Shown: piece by piece, positions 51,314 through 61,254 of the stretch
Layout of the letters: each line of letters opens with the position of its first letter
Position numbering within the stretch: position 1 is the first letter of the stretch
NCBI RefSeq assembly: GCF_000723205.1
Contig: NZ_HG315671.1
Location: 2,639,351 to 2,703,350, forward strand
Source: Formosa agariphila KMM 3901
Lineage (GTDB): Bacteria; Bacteroidota; Bacteroidia; Flavobacteriales; Flavobacteriaceae
DNA length: 64,000 bases
Direction: 5' to 3'
Notes under the pieces: generated by a model
Database searches by the model: none
The model's input: only the letters and a program-made list of their open reading frames with translations
Told to the model about the DNA's origin: nothing
Translations under genes and position numbers: made by a program

Positions 51314-51689
51314 AAATTGCTTCACAACCAATCATTACATCGCTAAATATCAACACCTTATATATTTAAAAAATAAGCATCTCTTTCGATACGTATACAC
51401 TAAAAAGATTATTATTTTAGAAAACCACTTAAAGGCTTTTTAGATAAAGTTAGGCGTGTAATAGCTTATAAATTACTATACTTTATTTTCTCTTAAAACA
51501 TCAGTATTACTCACTTTTAGGCCTACAACTTCCACTAAAATAAATCGGAAATAAAATTTTTATGTATGCTTTATTATTTTTTATCTTTAAAAATAAAAAA
51601 CAACCTGCGTTTATCGCAATTATTACTACTAACCCAATGCGTAAATTATAGACGCTTTTTAATTAAGATAATTTTGTCTGAATTAAAAT
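51314..51689. other. 376-bp gap before the Rrf2 regulator
   Basis: No ORF of note. The right end holds the operator-like sequence at 51667-51686. The rest is AT-rich with no clear terminator after the B12-domain gene. Confidence 0.5.
51667..51686 (+). promoter_or_regulatory. Candidate NO-regulon operator before rrf2
   Basis: GATAATTTTGTCTGAATTAA, 36 bp before the ATG. It matches 52178-52197 and 60712-60731. TAATTTTG within it (51669-51676) also fits the -7 promoter box TAnnTTTG, so a bound regulator would block its own promoter. Confidence 0.6.
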
Positions 51690-51722
51690 TTGTTTATATA
51701 TTTGCCAATAACAATTAACTAT

Positions 51723-52157
51723 ATGTTTTCAAAAGCATGTGAGTACGGTATTAGAGCATCGATTTTTATAGCCTTAAATTCTATGGAAGGAAGACGCGTA
51801 AGTCCGAAAGAAATTGCAAAAGAGATTGATTCTCCAGAAGCATTTACAGCAAAAATTTTACAAGCATTAGCCAGAAATAATGTTGTAAATTCTATAAAAG
51901 GAGCTCATGGTGGTTTTGAAATAAATAAAGATGAAATTAAAACAGTAAAGTTATCTGATATTGTAGATGCTATAGATGGCGATAATATATATAAAGGTTG
52001 CGGTTTAGGATTAAAAGAATGTGATGAAACCAAACCATGTCCAATGCACGACAAGTTTAAATCGGTTCGAGATGAATTAAGATTGATGTTAGAATCTACA
52101 GATTTAGAAGCTTTAGCTTTAGATATTAAATTAGGGGAAACCTTTTTAAAACGTTAA
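51723..52157 (+). CDS. Rrf2 family regulator, NsrR-like
   Basis: Iron-sulfur transcription regulator, probably sensing nitric oxide. It has 144 residues from the ATG at 51723; the frame is open 33 bp further upstream, but MFSKACEYGIRAS is the standard family start. A winged helix (PKEIAKEIDSPEAFTAKILQALARNNVVNSIKGAHGGFEI) is followed by three cysteines at 93, 100 and 106 (KGCGLGLKECDETKPCPMH), suited to hold a cluster as in NsrR/IscR. It lies 74 bp before the NO reductase gene, and the same putative operator precedes both. It likely represses norZ and nirK and itself until NO damages the cluster. Confidence 0.88.
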   Translation: MFSKACEYGIRASIFIALNSMEGRRVSPKEIAKEIDSPEAFTAKILQALARNNVVNSIKGAHGGFEINKDEIKTVKLSDIVDAIDGDNIYKGCGLGLKECDETKPCPMHDKFKSVRDELRLMLESTDLEALALDIKLGETFLKR

Positions 52158-52177
52158 AAAAATTTACCATTAAATAA

Positions 52178-52197
52178 GACAAATTTATCCGAATTAA
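52178..52197 (+). promoter_or_regulatory. Candidate NO-regulon operator before norZ
   Basis: GACAAATTTATCCGAATTAA, 34 bp before the norZ ATG. The first 12 bases form a near-perfect palindrome (GACAAATTTATC). It matches the sites before rrf2 and nirK over 20 bp. Confidence 0.6.
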
Positions 52198-52231
52198 TAA
52201 AAAAATTAATCAACTAACTATTTTAATTATT

Positions 52232-54478
52232 ATGAACAAAGAAAAAAAACTCTGGATACTGTTTGCGGCCGTAGTCATATGCTCCTTTAGCGTATTAGGA
52301 TATTATGGTTTCGAAATTTACCAACAGTCCCCTCCTATTCCTGAAGCTGTAGTTTCGGATACTGGTGAAACAATTTTTACCAAGGATGACATACAAGACG
52401 GACAAAATATTTGGCAAAGTATAGGCGGCCAAGAGTTAGGTTCTATTTGGGGACACGGCGCTTATGTTGCACCAGATTGGACTGCCGATTGGTTACACAG
52501 AGAAGCGGTTTATATTCTAGATATTTATGCTAAGAACGATTTTAATAAATCCTTTGACGATATTACAGATGAACAACAAGCTGCACTAAAAATTAGATTA
52601 CAAAACGATGTTCGAAAAAACACGTTTAATGCCTCGTCTAATACGATTACCATCAGCCAAAATCGTGTTGCAGCAATAAATCACTTAAGTGAATACTACA
52701 AAGGATTATTTACAAACGATCCGTCTTTCGATAAGTTAAGAGCAGATTACGCCATCCCGAAAAACACGATTAAGGATGATGCTAAAATGCAAAAAATGAA
52801 TGCCTTTTTCTTCTGGGCCACTTGGGCAACAGTTACAGAACGCCCAAACAGTAAAGTATCTTACACACATAACTGGCCTGCAGACGAACTTGTTGGAAAT
52901 GCTCCAACAATGGATTTAATGGTATGGTCTGGAGTTAGTATTATACTGTTAATTCTGTGCATTGGAATTCTTGTATTCTATCATGTAAAATCTGGTGAAG
53001 ACGAAGAAATGCCACCACCTGCCGAAGATCCTTTACTAAAACAAGGCATGACACCAAGCATGCACTTGGTAAAAAAATACTTTTGGGTGGTTACCTTGTT
53101 AATGGTCATTCAAATGTTATTAGGAATAGTAACTGCACATTATGGTGTAGAAGGCGACGGATTCTACGGTTTTGCTTTAGATCAGATTTTACCCTATTCA
53201 GTAACACGAACTTGGCATACACAACTAGCTATTTTCTGGATTGCTACAGCATGGTTAGCGACAGGTTTATACATTGCTCCTGCAGTATCTGGTAAAGATC
53301 CTAAATTTCAAAAATTTGGAGTTAATTTTTTATTCTTTGCACTACTTATTATCGTGCTTGGCTCTATGATTGGCCAATGGTTTGGCGTGATGCAAAAACT
53401 AAACTATTTAGAAAACTTCTGGTTTGGTCATCAAGGTTACGAATATGTAGACTTAGGTCGTTTTTGGCAAATATTCCTTTTCGTAGGTCTTATTTTATGG
53501 CTAGCGTTAATGGTACGACCTTTATTACCGGTCTTAAAACGTAAAACCGAAGAGAAGAACCTTATTATTATGTTCTTAATTTCGTGTACCGCTATTGCCC
53601 TATTTTACGCTTCAGGATTAATGTGGGGACAACATACTAACCTTGCAATTGCCGAATACTGGAGATGGTGGGTTGTTCACTTATGGGTTGAAGGATTCTT
53701 TGAAGTTTTCGCCACTGTAGTTATTGCATTTTTATTTGTAAGACTTGGCCTATTAAAAACTAAAACAGCGACTTTAAACGTTTTACTAGCAACCATCGTA
53801 TTTATGTCTGGTGGTATTTTAGGAACCTTCCACCACTTATATTTCTCTGGAACACCTAAAGCTATTATGGCTTTAGGAGCTACGTTTAGTGCTCTTGAAG
53901 TTGTGCCATTAACCTTAATTGGGTACGAAGCTTATCACAATTACAAATTATCGAAAGCAACTAAATGGATAGCAGACTACAAATGGCCCATTTACTTTAT
54001 GATTGCCGTTGCGTTTTGGAATTTCTTAGGCGCTGGAATCTTCGGATTCATTATTAATCCGCCAATAGCACTGTATTACATTCAAGGTTTAAATACCACA
54101 CCATTACACGCCCACACGGCTTTATTTGGAGTATATGGTATGTTAGGAATTGGACTTATGCTGTTTGTATTACGTAGCTTATATAGAAATGTGACTTGGA
54201 ATAATAAACTTATTAAAATTTCTTTCTGGTCGTTAAACATAGGATTACTAGCTATGGCCTTGTTAAGCTTAATGCCTATAGGAATATGGCAAGCTATTGA
54301 AAGTATAGAACACGGTATGTGGTATGCCCGTTCTTCGGAATTAATGCAAGACCCAACAATGATTACCTTAAAATGGATGCGAACTATAGGCGATGTCATC
54401 TTCGCAATAGGAATTGTTACCATCTGCTGGTTTGTATTCGACTTAACACTGAAAAATAAAATAACTAAAAATAATTAA
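52232..54478 (+). CDS. norZ: Quinol-dependent nitric oxide reductase (qNor)
   Basis: Reduces NO to N2O with electrons from quinol in the cytoplasmic membrane. At 748 residues it has the length of single-subunit qNor: an N-terminal span, a periplasmic cytochrome-c-like fold without haem (GQNIWQSIGGQELGSIWGHGAYVAPDWTADW), then 12-13 spans. Haem and iron ligands are visible in RTWHTQLAIFWIATAW, WWVVHLWVEGFFEVFATVV (His plus the Glu specific to NO reductases), GTFHHLYFSG and TPLHAHTALFGVYGMLGIG. It is controlled by its own upstream operator. The next gene (ric-like) starts 8 nt after the stop. Confidence 0.96.
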   Translation: MNKEKKLWILFAAVVICSFSVLGYYGFEIYQQSPPIPEAVVSDTGETIFTKDDIQDGQNIWQSIGGQELGSIWGHGAYVAPDWTADWLHREAVYILDIYAKNDFNKSFDDITDEQQAALKIRLQNDVRKNTFNASSNTITISQNRVAAINHLSEYYKGLFTNDPSFDKLRADYAIPKNTIKDDAKMQKMNAFFFWATWATVTERPNSKVSYTHNWPADELVGNAPTMDLMVWSGVSIILLILCIGILVFYHVKSGEDEEMPPPAEDPLLKQGMTPSMHLVKKYFWVVTLLMVIQMLLGIVTAHYGVEGDGFYGFALDQILPYSVTRTWHTQLAIFWIATAWLATGLYIAPAVSGKDPKFQKFGVNFLFFALLIIVLGSMIGQWFGVMQKLNYLENFWFGHQGYEYVDLGRFWQIFLFVGLILWLALMVRPLLPVLKRKTEEKNLIIMFLISCTAIALFYASGLMWGQHTNLAIAEYWRWWVVHLWVEGFFEVFATVVIAFLFVRLGLLKTKTATLNVLLATIVFMSGGILGTFHHLYFSGTPKAIMALGATFSALEVVPLTLIGYEAYHNYKLSKATKWIADYKWPIYFMIAVAFWNFLGAGIFGFIINPPIALYYIQGLNTTPLHAHTALFGVYGMLGIGLMLFVLRSLYRNVTWNNKLIKISFWSLNIGLLAMALLSLMPIGIWQAIESIEHGMWYARSSELMQDPTMITLKWMRTIGDVIFAIGIVTICWFVFDLTLKNKITKNN

Positions 54479-54486
54479 AACAAAAT

Positions 54487-55212
54487 ATTATCGAAGCTAT
54501 AACACAAAAACATGTAGGAGCATTTGTTGCTGAAGACTTTAGAACTGCTGCCGTCTTTACAAAATATGGAATCGACTTTTGCTGTAGAGGAAACCGATCG
54601 TTAGAAGAAGTATGCGAAAAAAACGGAATTTTAACAAGTGATTTAGTCGATAGTTTAGAACATGTACTTAACTCTAAAGCAGACCAATCTATAGATTATA
54701 AATCTTGGCCTTTAGATTTATTAATAGATTATATAGAAAAAAAACACCACCGTTATGTAGAAGAAAAATCGCCTATAATTAAACAATTCTTAGACAAGTT
54801 ATGTAAAGTTCACGGTGAAAGACATCCAGAATTATTTGAAATAAATGAATTATTTACAGCATCTGCGGGAGAATTAGCGCAACATTTAAAAAAGGAAGAA
54901 TTAATTTTATTCCCATTCGTTAAACGTTTATTAAAAGCTAAAGCAACCAACACACCTATTGAAGCTCCAGGTTTCGGAACAGTAAAAAACCCAATAGCAA
55001 CCATGATGCAAGAACATGATAACGAAGGTGTGCGTTTCAGACAAATTGCCGAAATTACAAACGACTATACGCCACCTGCCGATGGGTGTAACACGTATAA
55101 AGTAACCTTTGCAATGCTTCAAGAATTTGAACAAGATTTACATTTACATATACATCTTGAAAACAATATTCTTTTCCCTGCTGCAGAAAAATTAGAAAGT
55201 GAATTTTGTTAA
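54487..55212 (+). CDS. Ric/ScdA/YtfE-type di-iron repair protein, no standard start codon
   Basis: Helps repair iron-sulfur centres damaged by NO. The frame runs without interruption from 54475 to the TAA at 55210-55212. It reads IIEAITQKHVGAFVAEDF, RTAAVFTKYGIDFCCRGNRSLEEVCEKNGI (the ScdA_N motif with the CC pair) and then hemerythrin-like helices with HHRY, HGERHPE, HLKKEE, EHDNEG and HLHIHLENN iron ligands. That is about 241 residues, normal length. There is no in-frame ATG, GTG or TTG before 55003, which lies near the C-terminus. A stop at 54472 closes the frame upstream. Start by AUU at 54487 coupled to norZ, a mutated start, or a base error are the options. Confidence 0.75.
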   Translation: MIEAITQKHVGAFVAEDFRTAAVFTKYGIDFCCRGNRSLEEVCEKNGILTSDLVDSLEHVLNSKADQSIDYKSWPLDLLIDYIEKKHHRYVEEKSPIIKQFLDKLCKVHGERHPELFEINELFTASAGELAQHLKKEELILFPFVKRLLKAKATNTPIEAPGFGTVKNPIATMMQEHDNEGVRFRQIAEITNDYTPPADGCNTYKVTFAMLQEFEQDLHLHIHLENNILFPAAEKLESEFC

Positions 55213-55284
55213 AAACTCAATGACATAGTTTAAATTCCGAAATCTTATATCTTTAAGGTTTCGGAATTTTTATTTCACACTTTT

Positions 55285-56505
55285 ATGATGCAAAAAAAAC
55301 TTGTCCTTTTTTGTCTGTTTAATTTCCTTGTTGCAGGAATAATGGGACTAACCATGCGATTTGCCTTTATATCTGCTCTCGATTTTAATTATCGGAATTT
55401 AACGCATGCGCATTCGCATACGGCCATGTTAGGCTGGGTGTATTTAATGCTCTTTGTGCTTATTGTACATTATTTTGTTCCCAAAAAACAAAAGCTAATC
55501 GTTTATTTTGGGTTACAGAAATTGCCGTACTAGGAATGATGATTAGTTTCCCGTTTCAAGGCTATGCCGCAATTTCCATTATGTTTTCTACTTTTACATA
55601 TATTCTGTAGCTATTATTTTGTATATCTGATTTTTAAACATCAAAATATAAAATCTGCACCAACTAGAATATTACTAAAAACAGCGCTTATATTTATGCT
55701 GATTTCTACTATAGGTGTGTGGTGCTTAGGTCCAGCTGTTGGGCTTTTAGGTCAGGCTTCTGCCTTTTATCAAATCGCCATCCAATTCTTTTTACACTTT
55801 CAGTTTAATGGTTGGTTTTTAATTGGTATACTGGCTTTATTTTTTCATTATTTCAACATTAAAGACCATCCTTATTTTAAACACTTTCATACCACTTTAG
55901 TGCTGGCAACAGTCTGTACTTTGGCCTTACCTATTAGTTGGTTTGCCCCTACTCCTATTTTAATTTGGATTAATGGATTTGGTATATTGGCTCAAATCTT
56001 GTGTTTTATGTTTTTCGTTAAAATTGCAAAACCTAACATTACAAGTCATTTAAAAACGATTTCTATAGAAGCTAAATTTTGTTATGTATTTGCACTCATT
56101 TCATTTGCATTAAAAATACTATTTCAAAGCACATCGCTAGTTCCTGAAATTGCAAACATTGCCAAACAAAATCATAATTTCGTAATTGGATTTATTCATT
56201 TAACAATGCTTGGCGTAGTTTCTGGATTCTTATTTGCATTTATAATTCAATCTAAAATAGACTATAAAATCTCACTTTTTAAATCTGGTATCTACTCCTT
56301 TACTTTAGGATTTTTAGGCACCGAATTCGTACTATTCTTTCAAGGTTTACGCTTTGTATTTGGAATAGGATTAATCCCTAATTATTATCTTTTACTATTT
56401 ATACTAAGTTCTTTTCTAGTCCTAGGAATATCCTTTATCTTTATAAGCATATCAACCTCAAAAACAAACTATTATGACAGACAAAAAACCATTAAAGCGC
56501 CATAA
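55285..56505 (+). pseudogene. Frameshifted polytopic membrane protein (NnrS/haem-copper-like)
   Basis: One membrane protein of about 405 residues broken by two compensating indels. The first part (to about 55490) has MMQKKLVLFCLFNFLV and the motif HAHSHTAMLGWVYLM, like haem-copper or NnrS-type proteins. From about 55491 the sense continues in the next frame (KANRLFWVTEIAVLGMMIS, FPFQGYAAISIMFSTFTYI) to a stop near 55608. From about there it returns to the first frame (CSYYFVYLIFKHQNI onward) to the end, with about eight more spans. The first shift is beside an A6 run. Function is probably linked to NO metabolism by position. Confidence 0.7.
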
Positions 56506-56937
56506 ATCGTTACAACCTTTAAGCAGAGATCATCATCACGGATTACTATTGGCTTGGAAAATTAGAGCGGATTTAAGAAAGATATAGAAGTAGATCGCAT
56601 AAAAGTCTATACCGATTGGTTTTACACGTCGCATTTAGTTCCTCATTTTGAAATGGAAGAAGCTCATGTGTTTTCTATTTTAGCTGAAGACCATCCGTTG
56701 AGAATACAAGCCATAAACGAACACAAACAAATTAAAAAACTCGTTAATAAAACCACAGATTTAGAAGCTAATTTGAGTACGCTTGCAGATGTTTTAGAAG
56801 CACACATTCGCTTTGAAGAACGTGTAATGTTTCCAGAAATTCAAGCTATAGCCACTACAGAAGAGATGACTCATATAGATGACATACATTACGAACAAAA
56901 CCTTGAAGAAAACACAACCGACGAATTCTGGAAGTAA
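56474..56937 (+). pseudogene. Frameshifted hemerythrin-domain (HHE) protein
   Basis: A small hemerythrin-type protein of about 154 residues with one lost base. The ATG at 56474 gives KKPLKRHKSLQPLSRDHHHG and LLLAWKIRA, then the frame stops at TAG 56586-56588. In the -1 frame from about 56569 the expected sequence goes on: GFKKDIEVDRIKVYTDWFYTSHL, VPHFEMEEAHVF, INEHKQIKKLV, AHIRFEERVMFPEIQ. The metal-binding HxxxE and HFEMEE motifs are kept. It overlaps the end of the preceding broken gene by 32 nt. A real mutation or a sequencing error are both possible. Confidence 0.75.
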
Positions 56938-56976
56938 TTAAAAAAATCACCTAATAAACTAACTAAAACTATACCT

Positions 56977-57129
56977 ATGAGCCTCATTTTCTTAATTTTT
57001 CTAACAGCATTTATCTTATTAATAAAACAAAAAAAGAAACTAGCCTTAGCGGTATTTTCTTTAGGATTGGTATGTACTGTTGCCATGTTTTTTTACCACA
57101 CCACATCGTCACTTCAACTTAATTTTTAA
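56977..57129 (+). CDS. Small membrane protein, DUF5993-like
   Basis: A 50-residue protein with two hydrophobic helices: MSLIFLIFLTAFILLI, a KQKKK turn, then LALAVFSLGLVCTVAMFFYH. It ends 5 bp before dsbB. Such a short two-span protein next to DsbB fits the family I know as DUF5993. The family name is from memory; function is unknown, maybe a helper of the DsbB-like protein. Confidence 0.7.
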   Translation: MSLIFLIFLTAFILLIKQKKKLALAVFSLGLVCTVAMFFYHTTSSLQLNF

Positions 57130-57134
57130 TAGAT

Positions 57135-57668
57135 ATGAACGCATTAAAAATTATAAATAGTTCGGCCATTTTAATTATTTGTTCCATATTAATTGGAGCA
57201 TTTTATTTTCAATTTGGTTTACATGAAGATCCTTGTCCCTTATGTTTATTACAACGTATAGCCATGATTGCCGTTATATTTGGCCTATGTCTAAACACTT
57301 ATTTCGGATTTAAAGCAGAACATTTTGGAATTATTATTATCTCTGCGTTAATAGGTATTACCATTTCTACACGTCAAGTTCTACTTCATATTTGCCCTGT
57401 TCCAGGCGAAGCTGCTGGGTATGGTTCTCCTATTTTTGGTATGTATTTATACAGTTGGGGTGTTGTTATATTTGCGGCAAGTATTTTAGCTTCGGCTATT
57501 TTATTATTCTTTATTCCTAAGGCGGCAGTAACGAGAACAGACTTGAAAATTTCTCTTTTTGAAAAATCGGCAGTATATCTTGCAGTGCTTTTAATTCTTA
57601 TAAATGTTATTGCAACCTTATTTGAATGCCAATTAGGACCGTGTTGCGATGATGGACCTTGCCTTTAA
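57135..57668 (+). CDS. DsbB family disulfide bond formation protein
   Basis: Membrane protein that reoxidises thiol oxidases with quinone. It has 177 residues with four to five spans. The catalytic CPLC is at 34-37 in HEDPCPLCLLQR. The second periplasmic loop has LLHICPVPG with only one cysteine. The C-terminal tail FECQLGPCCDDGPCL holds several more, which might replace the second redox pair or bind metal. It ends the plus-strand block. Confidence 0.9.
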   Translation: MNALKIINSSAILIICSILIGAFYFQFGLHEDPCPLCLLQRIAMIAVIFGLCLNTYFGFKAEHFGIIIISALIGITISTRQVLLHICPVPGEAAGYGSPIFGMYLYSWGVVIFAASILASAILLFFIPKAAVTRTDLKISLFEKSAVYLAVLLILINVIATLFECQLGPCCDDGPCL

Positions 57669-57688
57669 AGCATAGATTATAACGTTAC

Positions 57689-57746
57689 AAAAAAAAACAT
57701 CAATTCTCAAAGTTAGCCTAATGCCACATAGAATTGATGGTTTTTT
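57689..57746. terminator. Bidirectional terminator between dsbB and the sco gene
   Basis: ATCAATTCT (57699-57707) pairs with AGAATTGAT (57730-57738). The stem is extended by flanking A and T runs on the two sides, so both converging operons get a U-tract. Confidence 0.75.
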
Positions 57747-57770
57747 ATTATAATACAGTCTACTCGTATT

Positions 57771-58388
57771 TTACATTTCGCTAACTGCTTTTTCTATATT
57801 TTCTATAGTTTCATCTGAGTTTACACCCAAACCTTCTTGTTGAAATACAAGTTCTCCGGCCTCATTAAACACACTAATAATATTTGAGTGAGAGAAATCC
57901 ATTGGAGAAATTTCTTTGTATTTTACTGCTAAAACCGCTGCAAATTCACGTGTGTTTTCAACTGAAGACCGTAAAAACATCCAAGGATCTTCGTCCATAA
58001 AATTTTCTTTAGCGAAGGCCTTTAAACGTTCTGGCGTGTCTGTTTCGGGATCAATACTCACAAAAATCATTTTTACTTTGTCTTTTGTGTCTTCTGGTAA
58101 GCGTGTTTCAATATTACGCATATCGGCTACCAATCTCGGACAAGCCGCTTTACAGGTCGTATAGATCATAACCATCACTAGCACATCGCCTTTTAAATCT
58201 TTTAAGTGAATATCTGCTCCGTCTTGATTCGTCCAAGTTGAAGGCAAATTGTAAATAGACATATCGGAAATAGCATCAGAAACCTTTTTAGACGCTGTGG
58301 TTTCCGGTTTTACAGTTTCCTTTGTTTCGTTTTTACATGAAACCAATCCTAAGCACATTAAACTAAAAACTACTATATATTTTTTCAT
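57771..58388 (-). CDS. SCO1/SenC family copper-binding lipoprotein
   Basis: Carries copper or redox-prepares copper sites. Here it is probably for the copper nitrite reductase encoded upstream in the same operon. It has 205 residues with lipoprotein signal CLGLVSCKNET (Cys19). The thioredoxin fold has the copper motif TTCKAACPRL and the distant ligand His in PMDFSHSNIISVFN. SIDPETDTPERLKAFA is also typical. It starts 15 bp after the NirV-like gene stop. Confidence 0.93.
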   Translation of the reverse strand: MKKYIVVFSLMCLGLVSCKNETKETVKPETTASKKVSDAISDMSIYNLPSTWTNQDGADIHLKDLKGDVLVMVMIYTTCKAACPRLVADMRNIETRLPEDTKDKVKMIFVSIDPETDTPERLKAFAKENFMDEDPWMFLRSSVENTREFAAVLAVKYKEISPMDFSHSNIISVFNEAGELVFQQEGLGVNSDETIENIEKAVSEM

Positions 58389-58403
58389 AACATTGTTGTT
58401 TAC

Positions 58404-59183
58404 TTATTCTATAGCGACGTCTTTTACGCATCTAAATCCTAAGTTTTTTATACCATAACGCGCACTTATACTACCACGAAATGCATAGCGCATAAAGGCT
58501 GCGTAATTCATTAAATCTGTTGCGCCAACTGCAGCTGCTCCACAAAACAGATTAGAATCTTTATCTACATCTTTTCTAGATTCACCTGTAATTAATACCG
58601 AATTAAAATCTGAAGTCCACTCCCAAACCAATCCGTGTAAATCGTAAACACCCCAATAATTTTTAGGATTGCGTCCAACTTCGTACGTATTAGTTCTAGG
58701 CGCTTCGTACCAAGATAAAATTTGTTGATTATAAGTTTCCTTAACCCGAGCATCTGCAATGTCTTCATCGGCCATGGCTACATATTCCCATTCGTCTACT
58801 GTTGGTAAACGTTTACCCTGACATTCGCAATACTTTCTAGCAGAAAACCAAGACACATAAGTAATCGGGCTGTTTGGGTTTTCGGAATCATTTAGCTCGG
58901 TATCATTTTTCCAGTTTGTTAAATAGGTGCCATCTACAAACAATTTTTTTGCTTTAGATTTTTGCCATTCTGGATACTTAATTACAAACGCTTGATATTG
59001 CTTATTGGTTACAGGATATTTATCCATAAAAAAATCATTCACCTTAACTACAGCAGAATCTCTACCATAAAGGGGGATATAAGTTCCCCCTTTAATTTCT
59101 GACATCTCTTCGCTGGATTGCGAATACATCGCATTTTGTAATGTGAATGCTATGCAAAACATTAATAATGTTCTAATTAGCAT
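58404..59183 (-). CDS. NirV-like protein with FGE-sulfatase fold
   Basis: An accessory protein of copper nitrite reductase clusters, role not settled. It has 259 residues with a signal peptide ending QNAMYSQ. The fold of formylglycine-generating enzymes is seen in YPVTNKQYQAFVIKYPEW, PITYVSWFSARKYCECQGKRLPTVDEWEYVA, GVYDLHGLVWEWTSDF and LGFRCVKD. The paired active-site cysteines that true FGEs have late in the protein are absent: the matching region reads AFMRYAFRGSISARYGIKN. So it should not be taken as the maturase of the ulvan sulfatases. It lies 17 bp after nirK and 15 bp before the sco gene. Confidence 0.85.
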   Translation of the reverse strand: MLIRTLLMFCIAFTLQNAMYSQSSEEMSEIKGGTYIPLYGRDSAVVKVNDFFMDKYPVTNKQYQAFVIKYPEWQKSKAKKLFVDGTYLTNWKNDTELNDSENPNSPITYVSWFSARKYCECQGKRLPTVDEWEYVAMADEDIADARVKETYNQQILSWYEAPRTNTYEVGRNPKNYWGVYDLHGLVWEWTSDFNSVLITGESRKDVDKDSNLFCGAAAVGATDLMNYAAFMRYAFRGSISARYGIKNLGFRCVKDVAIE

Positions 59184-59200
59184 AACCGTTTTATTTTATA

Positions 59201-60676
59201 TTATTTTTGATTTCTAACTTTATTAACCATTTCTGGAGTAATCACCTTTTTAGAATTCCCCCAACTGTGGTATACATAGGTTAAAACATTTGCAATTTCG
59301 TCTGGTGATAAACTCTGACGCGTCATTACACTATTATATTTTTCACCATTAACAGTAATTTCTCCAGTTAAACCATGTAACACTACGCCAATAGCACGAT
59401 CAACATCAGCATTTAAATAATCTGAATTTGCCAATGGAGGAAATGCTCCAGGAATTCCTTGTCCTTCTGCTTGATGACATGCAAAACATGTTTGTTGATA
59501 CGCTTGCTTTCCAAATTTTAATTGCTCTTCTAACGATTGTGCAGGAATATCTTTTGCTGCAACTTCATCAGATTCTGGCATAGCTTGAATTCCACCTCCT
59601 TCAGGTAAATAGATATCGTCTCTTAACTCTCCGCTATAAATTTTCTTATCTTCTTCACCTTCTACTTTAAGCATTCCTAAAGCACCTTTGTTAAAGGCTC
59701 TAAAAATAGAGTGGTCTACCATAATAAACGTTCCAGGCACATCTACTTTAAACTCAACTATTGAAGCTCCACCAGCAGGAATTAATGTAGTTTGTACATT
59801 ATCGTTAACTAAATCCCCACCTTCTACATGCACTTTATCAAAAATTTCTCCGATTACATGAAAAGAAGACACTAAATTTGGCCCGCCATTTCCAACAAAT
59901 AATCTTACTGTTTCTCCTACATTTGCAGTAATAGCATTATCGCCTGTTAATGCGCCTACTTTACCATTAAAAACAACATAATCTGGTTTTTCATCAATTG
60001 CTTTTTGCATATCGAAAGATTGTAAACCACGATCACCATGCGCTCCTTTGGTATAGAAGTCACCTTGCATAATGTAGTATTCTTTATCTACTGGAGGTAA
60101 TCCGCCTTCTGGCTCAACTAATATAAGTCCGTACATTCCGTTTGCAATATGCATTCCAACAGGAGCCGTTGCACAATGGTAAACATATAAACCTGGGTTT
60201 AACACCTTAAACGAAAACACTTTTTCGTGTCCTGGAGCGACAAAAGAAGATTCTGCACCTCCACCTGGACCGTTTACAGCATGTAAATCGATATTGTGTG
60301 GTAATTTGTTATCTGGATGATTCTTTAAATGAAATTCAACTTCGTCTCCTACGCGCGTTCTTATAAAACTACCTGGCACAGAACCTCCAAAAGTCCAATA
60401 CACATAACTGACACCGTTAAGCATTTCGCCTTCCTCTTCAAGGATTTCCATGTCTACGATTAGTTTTTTGGCTTGACGTCTTCCTACAGGAGTTGGTACA
60501 TGTGGCGGCGCTGTTAATTCGGCTTGCATAACTTGGCTTACCTCAATATCTGCGGTATTCACCTTTTCAGTTTTGTCTTCTTTGTTAGCACAAGATACGA
60601 TGGTAATACACGCCAACGCTATTATGGATTGCCTCCAATAAGAACGTACATTTAGAAAGTTTAGTTTAGTATTCAT
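59201..60676 (-). CDS. nirK: Copper nitrite reductase with C-terminal cytochrome c domain
   Basis: Reduces nitrite to NO in the periplasm. It has 491 residues with a lipoprotein signal [11 protein letters not shown] (Cys29). Two cupredoxin domains carry the copper ligands: [35 protein letters not shown] (type 1 Cys, His, Met), [18 protein letters not shown] and [20 protein letters not shown]. From about residue 385 a class I cytochrome c follows ([22 protein letters not shown], with distal Met near [13 protein letters not shown]), so the electron donor is built in. The operon is nirK-nirV-sco. An operator-like site lies 35 bp before the start. The NO made would be removed by norZ. Confidence 0.95.
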
Positions 60677-61254
60677 ATTTTCAGTTTTAATTTAAAAGCT
60701 TTAAGATAAAAGATAATTTTGTCCTAATTAGTTTCACAAAAATAAAACTAACAATTATGTTAATATATGATAAATATCAGTTTATAAAAAATTAAGATTC
60801 ATCAACCATGAATATAATTTTATTCATATTCCGTATTAAATTAATTAAAAGTATTGGTATTATACCATTATATAAATATTCATTACTAGTTTAGAATCTT
60901 TAATTCTATAGCATTACTAAAAGCAGGTAAATTATAATATACCGAGTTAAATTGTATTAACAATTTCGAAATAAAATATATAAACACCTAAAAGAACAAG
61001 AGTTAGCAAAGGCAAATAAAACTACTCAATTTTTAGCAGCCCTCTCATATTTATTATCGTAAAAAAAAGAGTGAGAAAACGGAGTTAAAATAGGTGTAAA
61101 AATCGATGCCAATTTTATTAAATAATAACTATGAATTAACGGTATATGTCGCATCCTTAACTAAAAAGAAATAAGGCTTAACATTTGTTAACAAGTTACA
61201 TTTTTAAAACTCATAAATAGTTGTATTTTTACAGCTACTAAAACCAAATTATTA
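60677..61254. other. 578-bp divergent promoter region between nirK and parA
   Basis: It holds the nirK operator candidate at 60712-60731 and, at the right end, the parA promoter area with GTATTTTTACAG (from 61223) about 25 bp before the parA ATG. The middle is AT-rich, with a weak hairpin-like stretch near 61040-61076. No ORF was accepted. Confidence 0.5.
60712..60731 (-). promoter_or_regulatory. Candidate NO-regulon operator before nirK
   Basis: The plus-strand sequence GATAATTTTGTCCTAATTAG is 35 bp before the nirK ATG. The preceding AA makes a 14-bp exact match (AAGATAATTTTGTC) with the rrf2 site at 51665. Its orientation relative to the gene is opposite to that at rrf2 and norZ, acceptable for a partly palindromic site. 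Confidence 0.6.

Follow-up and report, generated by a model that had tools for sequence, protein, structure and literature searches.

NsrR and IscR, two regulators with the Rrf2 fold, are the closest described counterparts of a candidate denitrification switch found in a 64,000-nucleotide stretch of the Formosa agariphila KMM 3901 genome (contig NZ_HG315671.1, positions 2,639,351 to 2,703,350; here called the window). The switch would consist of an Rrf2-family protein and a palindromic DNA element that precedes its own gene (rrf2), the gene for a quinol-type nitric oxide (NO) reductase (qNOR; norZ in the preliminary description), and nirK, the gene for a copper nitrite reductase. Rodionov et al. 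(2005) assign to NsrR the consensus site gATGyAT-N5-ATrCATc and name proteobacteria, Bacillus, and Streptomyces; the window protein resembles NsrR in its Rrf2 fold, its three conserved cysteines, and targets of the kind given there, such as nirK, norB, and dnrN. It differs from NsrR in score (29.3 bits compared to a cut-off of 182 for the NCBIfam equivalog NF008240, with which NsrR-like working is still compatible) and in cysteine spacing (x6/x5 plus a histidine compared to x4/x5 without the histidine in Escherichia coli NsrR). The DNA sites also differ, as had been claimed at the outset for the proteobacterial NsrR site: none of the three operators comes within 3 mismatches of the NsrR consensus, and the window total was 13 matches compared to 10.2 by chance. 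IscR shares with the window protein the fold and a Cys3-His set ending in C-x2-H, in which C106-x2-H109 aligns with C104-x2-H107 of E. coli IscR. The cluster-ligand assignments of IscR and NsrR serve here as background. The E. coli IscR motif is C-x5-C-x5-C-x2-H, so that the first spacing is one residue longer in the window protein, which also scores 47.9 bits compared to a cut-off of 207.55 for IscR (TIGR02010) and has no isc or suf gene among its identified targets.

A match in setting comes from PMC6264515, which describes Rrf2 genes on metagenome scaffolds with clade II nosZ, several of them from Flavobacteriia, and the action of such genes as known only from other groups. The kind of gene and the metabolic setting are the same as here; the paper reports genes, and its main text does not use the term "binding site." Neither a regulator-site pair for Bacteroidota denitrification genes nor an apparent description of the present operator was found in the literature searched, with subscription journals and regulon databases lying outside that search.

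The preliminary description, made from the window sequence, had proposed a 20-bp operator, GAYAAWTTTRTCYKAATTAR, shared by three genes. This was exact. The 20-mer occurs with 0 mismatches at 51667-51686 (rrf2), 52178-52197 (qNOR), and 60712-60731 (nirK), at the claimed 36, 34, and 35 bp from the start codons at 51723 (+), 52232 (+), and 60676 (minus), respectively. In the 4,228,350-base genome the pattern matched three times on one strand and 0 times on the other, always inside the window, and a backward-read control gave 0 matches genome-wide. At 3 mismatches there were five matches in the window compared to a shuffle mean of 1.43 (5 of 100 shuffles reached 5), two of the five being the sites at rrf2 and qNOR read on the opposite strand, and 75 matches genome-wide compared to 119 for the backward control. 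Weak copies were thus in no excess over the control, and only near-exact sites are informative. The extent of the element required revision: the 20-mer is real, but the true unit is a 28-bp palindrome, TTAATTnnGAYAAWWTTRTCnnAATTAA, whose left arm the 20-mer omits. Because the element is palindromic, it is harmless that the nirK 20-mer, as first given, is the reverse complement relative to this minus-strand gene.

Conservation of the palindrome was examined in relatives of the Rrf2 protein, with the best 80 of at least 526 matches kept; these represent 78 distinct loci, apparently mostly from Flavobacteriaceae genera. The palindrome, with the consensus TTAATTAGGATAAATTTGTCCTAATTAA, stands at the expected distance before rrf2 in 76 of the 78 loci. 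It overlaps the likely -33 element (TTTG in its right half) of the rrf2 promoter, and TAnnTTTG follows 20 bp on; the -7 spacing gave 69 matches at offsets 38 to 40 among the 76 operator-bearing rrf2 genes. The -33 and -7 elements were assigned by the Bacteroidota promoter consensus, TTTG/TAnnTTTG. Among distant relatives (∼44 to 60% identity), the core is often kept and the arms drift to forms like TTATAAAGGATA...TATCCTTTATAA.

A matrix was built from 65 distinct sequences of the 76 rrf2 sites (identical ones counted once, the two siteless loci left out). In the window it scored 34.5 at rrf2 and 36.7 at qNOR, where both arms match, and 15.7 at nirK, where there is a good core and the right arm only; the next-best place scored 4.3. 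Likewise, the 28-mer pattern at 0 mismatches retrieved from the whole genome just the copies at rrf2 and qNOR, the nirK site needing 4 mismatches. On 78 own-genome loci (∼245 kb, overlapping), the matrix gave only one place of at least 8 beyond the known ones (9.4, L092). A looser 28-mer search of the genome returned 28 places besides rrf2 and qNOR, 25 at 3 mismatches and three at 2 mismatches. The latter three were inspected: the place at 3863438 (score 17.3, above that of nirK) lies between two convergent genes and was counted as chance, and those at 1363689 (score 4.5, inside a response-regulator gene) and 3306116 (score 1.2, at the start of a gene) were rejected. These pattern searches, which could miss weak sites, revealed none of the additional NO or haem genes that had been expected elsewhere in the genome.

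Scanned across all 78 related loci (1.5 Mb) at a threshold score of at least 14, the matrix gave 194 matches, compared to 0 to 5 for each of 20 column-permuted palindromic matrices. An operator was found before 76 of 81 rrf2 genes (by construction), 61 of 74 ric genes (iron-sulfur cluster repair), 7 of 9 qnor genes, 25 of 31 nirK genes, 7 of 10 genes for a 167-aa cytochrome c, and 6 of 18 genes for a 132-aa protein. Seven of the 13 siteless ric genes stand second, behind qnor. These counts exclude open reading frames shorter than 80 aa, nirK genes under 350 aa or 60% identity, ric or qnor under 45%, rrf2 under 60%, and other genes under 40% identity, as well as genes too close to the locus end. 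Control genes of the same loci carried an operator once in 178 cases (hhe, 0/38; hyp55564, 0/58; fge, 0/33; sco, 1/37; parA, 0/12). The element was therefore not found before many unrelated genes, the outcome that the preliminary description had named as contrary to its proposal. Counted by place, 187 of the 194 matches precede the listed genes (rrf2, 76; ric, 61; nirK, 26; qnor, 10; cytochrome, 7; 132-aa gene, 6; sco, 1), the 26 places compared to 25 nirK genes arising because the place count had no nirK length or locus-end limit. Of the other seven, four precede a PAS-hemerythrin gene (L014), ferredoxin-like genes (L063, L075), and a cupin-like gene ahead of ric (L073), and three are in L024, L028, and L043.

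The targets beyond rrf2, qNOR, and nirK are known from relatives only. One example is the 167-aa cytochrome c gene, which in L028 heads a nosZ operon, with NosZ two genes on (TIGR04246, 928.6 bits; one locus tested); in L042 a similar 656-aa gene follows. In 20 stretches from family genomes, the operator was also seen before a cytochrome c-COX1 pair (L213), a ferredoxin-cupin pair (L210), another ferredoxin-cupin pair that is followed by a second qNOR (L214), an operon for a cbb3-type oxidase together with a globin (L208), and genes of cupin type (L208, L211). L211 contains one further site, to which no target is assigned. The L213 pair reads as putatively norCB-like from Pfam and gene order, with only weak oxidase matches in NCBIfam. 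Two loci (L036, 19628; L041, 16097) carry a second Rrf2 gene, 34 to 36% identical, which is oriented divergently to the gene for the 167-aa cytochrome; a single operator lies between the two genes. The 132-aa gene, which bears the operator in L022, L025, L030, L031, L047, and L060, belongs to no Pfam family (L025 tested); in L025 and L030 it is followed by a 281-aa and a 666-aa protein, the latter resembling, in L030, TonB copper/haem receptors at scores below cut-off. A metal-supply branch of the regulon is possible at these loci.

The palindrome also tracks the Rrf2 protein across genomes. At up to 1 mismatch, the 28-mer occurs in 24 of 120 family genomes, in each of which Rrf2 is matched with an E value of 1.7e-47 or lower, whereas 0 of the 49 genomes that lack such a match at 1e-20 carry the site (Fisher P = 7e-7). 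The few genome copies, the near-absence at control genes, and this co-occurrence together argue that the element is a regulon operator rather than a promoter type and that Rrf2 is its likely owner. The early claims of one shared operator, rrf2 autoregulation, and control of nirK and qNOR, all of them predictions, are supported.

The operator is placed differently at different promoters. A Crp/Fnr-like box, TGAYN4RTCA, lies upstream of 31 of 31 nirK genes, 10 of 10 genes for the 167-aa cytochrome, and 15 of 18 132-aa genes of the relatives, compared to 2 of 81 rrf2, 2 of 74 ric, and 1 of 37 sco genes and none of the qnor (9), hhe (38), hyp55564 (58), fge (33), or parA (12) genes. TAnnTTTG stands exactly 35 bp from the start of the box in 21 of the 25 nirK promoters that bear the operator and in 6 of the 7 such cytochrome promoters, and the window shows the same distance (60779 to 60744); the remaining five promoters of the relatives have no TAnnTTTG at that place. 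In the window, TGAYANNTRTCA occurs once, at this box upstream of nirK. The operator follows the -7 element and covers ∼+1 to +29 in 19 of 25 nirK genes and in the window, and it lies directly upstream of the box, touching it, in 6 of 25 nirK and 7 of 7 cytochrome genes. At ric or qnor it stands just before the gene, and an A-tract with TTTG/TTTA starts 7 bp ahead of it in 66 of 74 cases (52158-52169 in the window). The three geometries (over the start site, adjacent to the box, and over the rrf2 -33 element) would fit blocking, and an operator that covers the start site or touches the box would fit repression of an Fnr-type activated promoter. New here is the Crp/Fnr-like box beside the Rrf2 operator at the nirK and nosZ-operon promoters. 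Its position, compared to the usual -41.5 of class II Crp/Fnr sites, fits a putative class II promoter, at which a Crp/Fnr-type activator would provide nirK and the nosZ operon with a second input. Three Crp/Fnr-type helix-turn-helix genes of this genome exceed the cut-off, and none is linked here to the nirK box. PMC8510549, on one bioreactor Flavobacteriales genome, predicts carbon as the signal of the Crp/Fnr homologs in Flavobacteriales, a prediction that lends no support to an Fnr-type activator of nirK.

The Rrf2 protein passes the family cut-offs (PF02082, 82.3 bits compared to 30; TIGR00738, 81.8 compared to 73.3). Scores against specific NCBIfam models, all far under their cut-offs, were 54.9 bits for the SUF regulator, 47.9 for IscR, 41 for CymR, 35.9 for RirA, and 29.3 for NsrR. 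Its motif, C93-x6-C100-x5-C106-x2-H109, recurs as C-x6-C-x5-C-x2-H in 78 of 78 relatives, although part of it is covered by one of the six search peptides used to gather them. The three cysteines singled out at the start as suited to a cluster are thus all kept, and they align with those of E. coli IscR and NsrR. We infer that C93, C100, C106, and perhaps H109 hold an iron-sulfur cluster. The AlphaFold2 model has a mean predicted local distance difference test score (pLDDT) of 83.2 and a predicted template modeling score of 0.75, with residues 91 to 100 at pLDDT 63. Foldseek placed it closest to RsrR (6hsm, 6.7e-8), then CymR (2y75), IscR, and NsrR (7b0c, 3.4e-6), and the modeled fold agrees with those of solved Rrf2 proteins.

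Taken together, these data make it probable that the Rrf2 protein encoded at 51723 has the element as its operator and is an NO-released repressor of rrf2, nirK, and qNOR-ric. The sites, their positions and conservation, the gene set, and the co-occurrence with Rrf2 are seen directly in the sequences; binding, cluster, repression, and relief by NO are suggested by gene content, co-occurrence, and protein family. Rrf2, a probable dimer that would carry an iron-sulfur cluster, would bind the 28-bp palindrome and repress. It would cover the -33 element at its own promoter, cover at nirK the start site of a promoter switched on by a Crp/Fnr-type activator, and act at qNOR-ric from the site just before the gene. 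NO produced by NirK would damage the cluster, Rrf2 would release the DNA, and NO reductase, RIC, NirK, and Rrf2 itself would be expressed. In relatives the circuit would extend to the nosZ operon and, in one genome, to the norCB-like pair. A broader proposal, that this is a denitrification switch of the Bacteroidota's own, seems evenly balanced. In it, an Rrf2 lineage with IscR-like ligands would have taken the NsrR role with an unrelated 28-bp operator and would place on nor, rrf2, and ric, and on nir and nos promoters activated by Crp/Fnr, a veto that NO releases. Overall, the site finding is stronger than first claimed, whereas the NsrR comparison and the NO role are weaker, NO being something that we infer.

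Several observations weigh against an NO-released Rrf2 repressor acting through this operator. Among the 71 genomes in which Rrf2 is matched at 1e-20, paralogs counted, 47 have no site at one mismatch, and the search pattern was derived from rrf2 sites, so that rrf2-adjacent matches were to be expected. One of the 24 matches (G013) lies in or beside a response-regulator gene below the matrix threshold; it is probably chance, and the rrf2 gene of that genome has an operator-like site scoring 20.9. The site is missing from the expected place at two of 78 rrf2 loci (L028 and L049), from three second rrf2 copies near nirK in Formosa, and, read by eye, in recognizable form from 8 of 25 rrf2 upstream regions of a phylum-wide draw. 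Six of 31 nirK and 3 of 10 cytochrome genes have no operator, and the operator precedes targets without a clear NO link, namely the 132-aa gene (6 of 18) and sco (1 of 37). No TAnnTTTG was found for ric/qNOR. Finally, nitrite, redox state, or iron-sulfur status could be what the protein senses; signals in the Rrf2 family are diverse.

An ordinary promoter motif of the Bacteroidota (TTTG/TAnnTTTG) is a hardly plausible reading of the element. Its core often includes TAnnTTTG, and its TTTG is the likely -33 element at rrf2, but the genome has only three near-exact copies, and the element stands before 1 of 178 control genes in the related loci. Its position also varies, mostly after a separate TAnnTTTG at nirK, upstream of the Crp/Fnr-like box at the nosZ operon, and near the start codon at ric, so that the palindrome has no constant promoter position. 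It is improbable, too, that a Crp/Fnr-family regulator (DNR-, HcpR-, or NnrR-like) binds the element and that rrf2 is merely one of its targets. The half site GAYA does resemble a Crp/Fnr half site, boxes of that type precede 31 of 31 nirK, 10 of 10 nosZ-type cytochrome, and 15 of 18 132-aa genes, and the genome has three Crp/Fnr-type helix-turn-helix genes. However, the spacing of the palindrome, GAYA-N4-TRTC, differs from the TGAY-N4-RTCA of the box, the two are found next to each other at the nirK and nosZ-operon promoters, and among the 81 rrf2 genes the box is found at two compared to 76 for the palindrome, which follows the presence of Rrf2 across genomes.

An Rrf2 protein that owns the operator and senses iron-sulfur or redox status (IscR-, RsrR-, or SUF-type) instead of NO is harder to separate from the preferred reading, and we regard it as rather unlikely. 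Its closest specific models are SUF (54.9 bits) and IscR (47.9) compared to NsrR (29.3), the Cys3-His motif is as in IscR, and in fold the protein matches RsrR and CymR best and NsrR less well. Against this, the identified targets are NO-producing and NO-consuming enzymes plus RIC, and none is isc or suf. Iron-sulfur clusters of the Rrf2 family react with NO, and the two readings therefore overlap.

With a defined operator and a probable owner, the regulon becomes predictable from sequence. Bacteroidota hold many clade II nosZ genes, which consume N2O, and the operator-owner pair lets one ask whether NO gates N2O reduction in this phylum; it also bears on whether NO can be sensed with cluster ligands of the IscR type. 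The palindrome circuit looks like a little-described control of denitrification.

Table 1. Genes and regulatory elements of the putative Rrf2 circuit in the window
Feature	Position	Strand	Basis or remark
rrf2, Rrf2-family regulator, 144 aa	51723..52157	+	PF02082, TIGR00738, motif, AlphaFold2 model
rrf2 operator, 28-bp palindrome TTAATTAAGATAATTTTGTCTGAATTAA	51659..51686	.	Pattern and matrix; kept in 76/78 relatives
Likely -33 element, TTTG inside rrf2 operator	51673-51676		
Likely -7 element of rrf2 promoter, TATATTTG	51697..51704	+	20 bp after TTTG
qNOR operator, 28-bp palindrome TTAAATAAGACAAATTTATCCGAATTAA	52170..52197	.	Same place before next gene (qnor/ric) in relatives
qNOR, quinol-type NO reductase, 748 aa	52232..54478	+	PF22085, 247.6 bits; PF00115, 225.4 bits
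ric/scdA, iron-sulfur cluster repair di-iron protein, next after qNOR	54487..55212	+	TIGR03652, 239.8 bits, over cut-off
nirK, copper nitrite reductase with C-terminal cytochrome c domain, 491 aa	59201..60676	minus	TIGR02376, 352.8 bits, over cut-off; PF00034
nirK operator, good core and one arm	60704..60731	.	∼+1 to +29 of predicted transcript; matrix score 15.7
Likely -7 element of nirK promoter, TATTTTTG	60737..60744	minus	
Crp/Fnr-like box TGATAAATATCA	60768..60779	.	Starts 35 bp before nirK -7 element

The qNOR protein had no match at 1e-5 in NCBIfam, and no NosZ over the cut-off was found in this genome. In three Formosa loci (L005, 18555; L009, 18479; L010, 18479), a second rrf2 copy, 68 to 76% identical and without the operator, lies between nirK and parA; tblastn found no trace of a relic of it in the gap before nirK of the window. 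Between ric and nirK there are membrane-type and hemerythrin-like genes, then DsbB-like, SCO1-like, and sulfatase-modifying-factor-like genes. The 241-codon frame of ric (54480-55212) is intact and has no ATG, GTG, or TTG where seven close relatives start, reflecting either start loss, a rare start codon, or a sequence error. At 55285-56937, the membrane-type and hemerythrin-like genes (395 and 154 aa, respectively, in L213) are split or shortened. Together with ric, they make three adjoining genes with lesions, the result of either decay or sequence errors.

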